Of a stretch of 64,000 bases of DNA, positions 24,624 through 26,007 are shown piece by piece. This DNA is from Burkholderia ambifaria AMMD (GTDB lineage: Bacteria; Pseudomonadota; Gammaproteobacteria; Burkholderiales; Burkholderiaceae), in assembly GCF_000203915.1 (NCBI RefSeq), contig NC_008390.1:620001-684000 (forward strand), given 5' to 3'. Position numbers and translations under genes: made by a program. Below the pieces are notes generated by a model. The model had not been told where the DNA came from and did not search any database. It saw only the letters and a list, made by a program, of their open reading frames with translations. Numbering within the stretch: the first letter of the stretch is position 1; each line of letters opens with the position of its first letter.

Positions 24624-25036
<413 letters not shown>

Positions 25037-25050
25037 GTTCGAATGCGAAA

Positions 25051-25530: not shown

Positions 25531-25821
25531 GCTTGCACTCCAGCGTTGCCTGATTCGGATTCGATCCGGCATTGTAGCCCGCCGGGCAATGGTCGGCTGA
25601 TGCGCTGCACGACGCGAAAGGGCGGGCCGGGGCGTGCGGCGGCCAGTGGGGTGCGGGGCACCGATTTCCCTGAGGGTTTTAGGGGTTTTACTCTAGCTTC
25701 GATGGGCTTCTGCGCGTGCGCTCGCTAACCAATCTATTGATTTTAAAGAGAAAACCCGATTTGACTCGCGAAATGGCGTTCATCCCACATTGTGGTTTCA
25801 GATTTCTTAATGCGAATTTTC
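25531..25821. other. Intergenic DNA upstream of the small-RNA candidate
   Basis: No gene was recognised. From about 25670 the DNA becomes AT-rich (runs such as GATTTTAAAG and AGATTTCTTAA), consistent with an upstream promoter element for the transcript starting near 25857. The start-proximal part holds the osmC-like gene promoter. Confidence 0.4.
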
Positions 25822-25850
25822 TTGTGAAGTCGACGCCCCATTCGTATAAT
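25822..25850 (+). promoter_or_regulatory. Sigma-70 promoter of the small-RNA candidate
   Basis: A consensus TATAAT -10 box (25845-25850) lies 17 bases after TTGTGA (25822-25827), which matches the -35 consensus at four of six positions. Start of transcription is expected near 25857. Confidence 0.7.
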
Positions 25851-25856
25851 GAGCCT

Positions 25857-25948
25857 CATTGGTTGTCGCGGTGCGACAATCTCCGCATGTCTCCTCCACC
25901 CTCCTCCTGAGGTGGATTAAGCCCGAACCAGCCGTTCGGGCTTTTTTT
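25857..25948 (+). ncRNA. Candidate small RNA with anti-Shine-Dalgarno loop
   Basis: A compact transcription unit of about 92 bases with no adequate coding frame. Stem 1 is TTGTCGC/GCGACAA (25863-25869 with 25873-25879). Stem 2 is TCCACC/GGTGGA (25895-25900 with 25911-25916) and exposes CTCCTCC (25901-25907) in its loop. A second CTCCTCC lies at 25891-25897. CTCCTCC can pair with ribosome-binding sites. Stem 3 (25920-25928 with 25934-25942) plus a T run is an intrinsic terminator that would leave a poly-U tail suited to Hfq. This is inferred from sequence only. A 7-codon frame (25887-25910, MSPPPSS) overlaps but has no ribosome-binding site. Confidence 0.6.
25920..25948 (+). terminator. Terminator of the small-RNA candidate
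   Basis: AGCCCGAAC (25920-25928), loop CAGCC, then GTTCGGGCT (25934-25942) followed by T residues to 25948. Confidence 0.9.
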
Positions 25949-26007
25949 CGTCCCATGCAATGAGCAGCGCGCAGTTTGCGCGCTCCGACATCCGTTACGG
26001 GTGGTGA

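Follow-up and report, generated by a model that had tools for sequence, protein, structure and literature searches.

An RF02278 small RNA between osmC and rplM, very likely orthologous to NcS27, and a possible link between its family and PhaR

Burkholderia cenocepacia J2315 is described as encoding four RNAs of the Rfam family RF02278 (Betaproteobacteria toxic sRNA). One of these, ncS27, is a 92-nt RNA with a folding energy of -37.8 kcal/mol, which lies in a gene order -> <- ->, can undergo processing into a shorter RNA and, relative to log-phase culture, is reported to be 9.7-fold up in biofilm and 4.3-fold up in glucose medium (PMC4603805, PMC5688073). Growth inhibition in E. coli has been reported for the family (PMC4603805), and overexpression of NcS27 slows growth (PMC5688073). 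According to a 2024 review, cells overexpressing NcS27 grow less well on phenylalanine, tyrosine, glycerol and galactose, and the effects of NcS27 extend to phenylalanine/tyrosine catabolism and carbohydrate transport. In the 2017 paper the trigger for accumulation of these sRNAs is given as unknown, and an upstream motif shared by three homologues is referred to its supplement (PMC5688073). The Bordetella RNA S17 is reported to bind Hfq and to be cleaved by RNase E. Of the roughly 91 genes that rise in its absence, 70 have complementary sites; E. coli BL21 overexpressing S17 still grew normally in exponential phase, and its entry into stationary phase was modestly affected (PMC11722255). Such Hfq binding is described for S17, and the consulted portions of the NcS27 literature contain no corresponding statement for NcS27.

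Family, locus and structure of the window RNA

A cmscan search against Rfam identified a member of RF02278 (E 6.6e-14, score above the curated cut-off; Table 1) on the forward strand of the window, by which we mean the whole 64,000-nucleotide stretch of DNA analyzed here. It displays the two hairpins of the family, the second of which is an intrinsic terminator, along with the seed UGUCUCCUCC. The element itself is an already known RNA and of low novelty, and the initial annotation erred in calling it unannotated; its proposal of a stand-alone sRNA directed against Shine-Dalgarno sequences agrees with the NcS27 and S17 papers on pairing with ribosome-binding sites. We hold with high confidence that the window RNA is an RF02278 member and very likely the orthologue of NcS27, predicted to block the translation of catabolic and uptake mRNAs. 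This orthology was judged from length, energy, family and neighbor order against the published description. Both the predicted length of 92 nt and the energy of -37.8 kcal/mol equal the published NcS27 values, and the neighbors reproduce the published order -> <- -> as read from the other strand, a match at the level of strand order.

Table 1. Features of the small RNA locus in window coordinates
Feature	Coordinates	Strand	Evidence
PhaR-like 17-mer before osmC	25597..25613	+	15/17 positions; core kept in 27/28 genus loci
Conserved upstream block	25782..25824	+	high column information in 63 orthologues; ends at -35
Upstream box 1, like ATTTCrCATTATG	25782-25794	+	conserved in orthologues
Upstream box 2, like ATTTCGCAATGCAAAT	25802-25817	+	conserved in orthologues
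Sigma-70-type promoter, TTGTGA-17-TATAAT	25822..25850	+	10/12 consensus bases
Predicted primary transcript, 92 nt, likely NcS27 orthologue	25857..25948	+	start 7 nt past -10; end at end of T run
Hairpin 1 (5'), beyond the Rfam model	25861..25881	+	6/9 pairs changed on both sides; 88% of cells paired
PhaR-like palindrome inside hairpin 1	25863..25879	+	15/17 positions of published motif; function uncertain
RF02278 double-hairpin core	25888..25949	+	74.4 bits, cut-off 50
First CU-rich site GUCUCCUCCACC, predicted pairing site	25889..25900	+	exact complement near indolepyruvate oxidoreductase start
Hairpin 2, loop with second CUCCUCC (25901-25907)	25895..25916	+	99.2% of cells paired; 4/6 pairs never vary
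Hairpin 3, intrinsic terminator, U run to 25948	25919..25943	+	10 pairs; 98.9% of cells paired; 2 pairs changed on both sides

The gene neighborhood is strongly conserved: among 82 related loci, which include repeat copies of one place, osmC adjoins the sRNA in all and rplM lies beyond it in 80. In the window rplM is the next gene on the sRNA strand and starts about 680 bp on. Of the two neighbors named in the initial annotation, the osmC-like gene stands (PF02566), whereas the DUF1090 gene falls below threshold (21.0 bits, cut-off 24.4); tblastn detects a putative DUF1090 gene in 43 of the 82 loci. Directly before the osmC-sRNA region lies a class A RNase P RNA gene (24626-25037, 293 bits). 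Among named records, in a collection that may omit the window's closest relatives, a 41-base pattern taken from the sRNA has exact matches only in Burkholderia sp. BCC1644 and MS389, which places the window in Burkholderia. RF02278 was found in all 61 genus genomes searched, with the DNA of the locus likewise matched in 61/61, and the window's own genome (7.53 Mb, four contigs) contains six RF02278 places at E <= 0.001, four of them over the cut-off. Among 200 genomes of the order 128 have matches at E <= 0.001 and 75 over the cut-off. In a class-wide sample of 185 genomes, 51 gave RF02278-like matches at E <= 0.001, of which only two, in the own genome and in another genome of the same order, pass the cut-off; the others may reflect chance matches or a broader family that has diverged. 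Three genomes of a single family (G067, G116, G238) have 8-9 matches each at E <= 0.001, some of them close together.

Folding of 25857-25955 gave three hairpins at -37.8 kcal/mol (z -3.86, with 1/200 shuffles equal or better), which bears out the three stem-loops drawn by eye over about 92 bases in the initial annotation. Likewise, the promoter with its 17-bp spacing and the strong terminator, a 10-pair stem followed by a T run (a feature examined under the Hfq-dependent sRNA class), were both recovered where they had been proposed. The two CTCCTCC motifs (25891-25897 and 25901-25907) are present as described, one of them in a 10-base loop, though each is only partly unpaired: in the first, 25890-25894 are unpaired at 0.99-1.0 and 25895-25897 belong to stem 2; the second leaves 25904-25907 free, with 25901-25903 for the most part base-paired within the loop.

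Conservation was examined in 63 distinct sequences, 28 from the genus and 35 from other genera. Both CTCCTCC motifs occur in 60 of them, and GTCTCCTCCA of the first CU-rich site is unvarying in all 63. On this alignment the window structure, the use of which as the tested structure favors it, has 95.0% of cells paired versus 33-47% when slid, and 9/25 pairs have changed on both sides; none of 500 shuffles scored as high on any of five measures, and RNAalifold recovers parts of all three stems. These paired changes support the stems, including the 5' hairpin. The innermost pair of hairpin 1 fails in 30/63 and its length ranges from 20 to 24 nt among orthologues, while hairpin 2 says little either way because it is nearly invariant. 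The conservation of the 5' hairpin also shows the Rfam model to be incomplete for RNAs of the NcS27 type; as in NcS27, this hairpin is predicted to be cut off by processing.

The -35 TTG is unvarying across the orthologue alignment, and an exact TATAAT occurs in 40 of the 63 distinct orthologues, the remaining ones having other -10 forms. Just before the -35 lie two boxes of the type ATTTCrCAwT, spaced by about 20 bp and kept across genera. This block resembles tandem regulator sites and is likely to be bound by a putative regulator. It has no second copy in 2.06 Mb of chromosome, and scans with the individual boxes over the same sample yielded no regulon. The box-1 scan scored a site at C2:283116 (24.9) above that of the window (22.2), but C2:283116 is some 260 bp away from any predicted gene start; in the box-2 scan C2:1098812 ranks second, within a frame that by eye resembles RNase III.

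Candidate PhaR boxes upstream of RF02278 RNAs

PhaR is a polyhydroxybutyrate-sensing repressor. Many RF02278 copies other than that of the window have upstream boxes resembling TTGC-RNY-GCA, which by eye overlap the -35 hexamer in the genus paralogues, and the PhaR motif has been given as YTKNTGCRNYGCANMAR in a 2025 paper (PMC12849132). From this 17-mer a 12-base core, TGCRNYGCANMA, was trimmed after the boxes had been seen, and its counts accordingly lean towards a hit: within 160 nt upstream it occurs in 2/3 own paralogues (L001 lacks it), 25/29 genus copies and 23/29 order copies, versus 0/12, 0/116 and 3/116 of the respective flank windows. Permuted cores gave means of at most 0.09, with maxima of 6 and 1 of 29 (300 cores) and 2 of 47 (about 200 cores). 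The core as such is not rare, with 91 places in 2.06 Mb, 31 of them intergenic versus 17% expected by length; a stricter dyad has 3 places and its reversed control 12. The full 17-mer at <= 3 mismatches separates copies from controls poorly, being found in 29/29 genus copies (16/116 control windows), 27/29 order copies (31/116), 28/28 NcS27 sequences of the genus (33/110) and 29/35 of other genera (57/139). Upstream of the two own phasin genes there is one perfect motif copy, the other gene being without the core.

The core box follows the presence of the PhaR gene across the order. This gene (PF07879) is found in 136/200 order genomes, including the own genome. In 66 genomes from 23 families, each represented by one RF02278 copy, the box lies upstream in 37/47 genomes with PhaR versus 1/19 without it (Fisher p 2.9e-8); counted by family units the figures are 16/17 versus 1/9 (p 4.9e-5), and shared descent is not removed from either comparison. 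The sample comprises 27 PhaR-positive and 2 PhaR-negative genomes plus a further 20 and 17, respectively, with a few further positives left out; three families hold both states. The single box-bearing genome without PhaR is 85% complete, and its family relatives bear the gene. No printed link of PhaR or carbon storage to RF02278 sRNAs was found in the titles and openings of the literature searched; as whole words, PhaR, polyhydroxy and phasin are absent from PMC4603805, and PhaR, polyhydroxybutyrate, phasin and PHB are absent from PMC5688073 and PMC11722255.

The apparent link between PhaR and the family as a whole is a new lead worth following. It raises the possibility, towards which we lean slightly, that RF02278 sRNAs constitute the RNA arm of the Burkholderiales carbon-storage switch. 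PhaR would sit on the predicted box upstream of these sRNAs and repress them; polyhydroxybutyrate granules would draw PhaR away, and the released sRNAs would then shut down nutrient uptake and catabolism. Burkholderia NcS27 would be the member that lost the PhaR box of its promoter and came to be run by the two other conserved upstream boxes, its 5' hairpin holding a relic or alternative PhaR palindrome. If true, carbon storage would be coupled to a wide-ranging restraint of catabolism, and the tracking of the box with the PhaR gene makes the question of what causes these sRNAs to accumulate directly testable.

At the window's own locus the promoter lacks the core box, which is found in 0/28 genus orthologues; in other genera the core lies upstream of 16/35 NcS27 orthologues versus 4/139 flank windows. 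Near the genus NcS27 genes 27 of 110 control windows have the core, all representing the box before osmC, and this palindrome at 25597-25613 may concern osmC rather than the sRNA. The palindrome within hairpin 1 is the best match to the motif in 28/28 genus sequences. It is conceivable that it acts as a DNA operator for PhaR, instead of or besides being an RNA element: it differs from the published 17-mer at two positions in 27 of the 28 (three in the other), a level of <= 2 mismatches reached by 9/600 control windows, and PhaR is reported to bind also around the phaP1 start site (PMC12849132). We nevertheless regard such an operator as unlikely, since both mismatches fall in the central TGC/GCA, reported as the best-kept region of PhaR sites (PMC12849132), the length spread among orthologues suits an RNA better than an operator, and the upstream core is missing throughout the genus. 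Direct PhaR control of the window copy is unproven, and appears less likely than that of its paralogues because of this absent core and the central position of the mismatches.

Candidate targets and mode of action

The published anti-Shine-Dalgarno pairing offers the best mechanism for the window RNA. A 92-nt NcS27-like sRNA would be cut down to the two-hairpin form, in which unpaired CU-rich stretches would anneal to the Shine-Dalgarno sequences of mRNAs for catabolism and uptake; with the ribosome-binding site thus covered, these mRNAs would no longer be translated. Family score, osmC–rplM position, stems, the invariant CU-rich seed and the lack of a conserved peptide are properties of the window copy itself; transcription, processing, slow growth on overexpression (NcS27) and relief of targets without the sRNA (S17) come from the literature. 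From these we infer that the window copy behaves like NcS27 and S17, with Hfq assisting, and likewise the identity of its mRNA targets.

We scanned 2.06 Mb of chromosome with 1776 predicted genes, whose start codons are imperfect (the osmC call starts inside the gene). The target prediction with the CU-rich motif, as the initial annotation had proposed, recovered 13 genes with at least 9 contiguous complementary bases in the Shine-Dalgarno region. With the CU-rich region as query, 9-nt matches are 16 times denser per position at -22..-5 than elsewhere, an enrichment that is partly trivial because Shine-Dalgarno sequences lie there; they number 24, whereas 30 composition shuffles gave a mean of 5.3 (maximum 20) and the reversed sequence gave 8. 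The 13 genes include two indolepyruvate ferredoxin oxidoreductases, an ExaC-type and another aldehyde dehydrogenase, a GMC oxidoreductase, OmpW, a sugar-class ABC permease, a DUF485 protein and two periplasmic binding proteins, the uptake proteins being of the sugar and amino-acid types. Sorted by hand, uptake and catabolic genes make up 10/13 versus 9/19 random Shine-Dalgarno-bearing genes (20 minus one spanning two loci), a difference that is not significant (p 0.15) and suggestive only. A search by duplex energy showed no enrichment at gene starts: 36.4% of start regions reached -16 kcal/mol or better with the true seed, compared with 39.8% when the seed was reversed and 49.8% on average with 20 shuffled seeds. 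This approach is uninformative in this GC-rich genome and lends specificity no support.

The longest match, GGTGGAGGAGAC, precedes a 1196-aa indolepyruvate oxidoreductase and would pair with 25889-25900. This 12-nt site is kept in 29 of the 30 loci inspected (the search matched 61/61 genomes), and the indolepyruvate ferredoxin oxidoreductase is a notable candidate added by the scan to the targets. At the same locus (L160:19730-19860) conservation in most of the 30 loci goes further than the Shine-Dalgarno sequence and takes in about 30 bases ahead of the start, CCCAAACTGGG among them. Upstream of a DUF485 gene (L230:15765-15900) lies a dispersed repeat whose units are in places spaced by about 49 bp; it matches 19 sites of the own genome, and a relative has as many as 42.

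With a seed nearly complementary to a perfect Shine-Dalgarno sequence, the RNA could instead be an unspecific brake on translation, a mimic that binds any strong Shine-Dalgarno sequence. This would explain the E. coli toxicity after which the family is named, and the growth slowed by NcS27 overexpression is in its favor. Nevertheless, just 13/1776 predicted genes have a 9-nt match near the start, one 12-nt site is kept in nearly all loci inspected, most of the genes that rise in Bordetella without S17 have complementary sites and S17 overexpression spared exponential growth of BL21; we consider a brake of this kind improbable and prefer selective pairing with catabolic and uptake mRNAs. The other reading offered initially, an mRNA leader or tiny gene encoding MSPPPSS, can be practically discarded, for while the ATG is retained in 49/63 sequences, the 7-codon frame with its stop is kept in just 17/63 and altered in several, no ribosome-binding site is seen ahead of it, and a terminator follows with rplM well downstream.

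Comparison with known systems

The closest described system is NcS27 itself, with which the window RNA shares length, energy, family, the order and strands of its neighbors and the extra 5' part; the two probably come from different species or strains. S17/S17S of Bordetella pertussis has a near-identical seed region, anti-Shine-Dalgarno pairing and metabolic and transporter targets (PMC11722255), but is described as a BvgA-dependent, Hfq-bound RNA with a 190-nt precursor, and was compared by seed and description. The anti-hemB RNAs (RF02837) have a similar layout of CU-rich loop and terminator, but the window RNA scores 25.9 bits with their model in cmscan, below the cut-off of 49.5. The NmsR sibling sRNAs of Neisseria meningitidis, likened here by description, are reported to direct two CU-rich unpaired stretches at ribosome-binding sites of metabolic genes (PMC5688073), but form a tandem pair. 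MmgR (alpha-r8) of Sinorhizobium meliloti, a short Hfq-dependent sRNA described as being under negative AniA/PhaR control (PMC8401924), is alphaproteobacterial, belongs to another RNA family and acts on phasins; for the putative circuit of PhaR and RF02278 sRNAs it is the nearest precedent.
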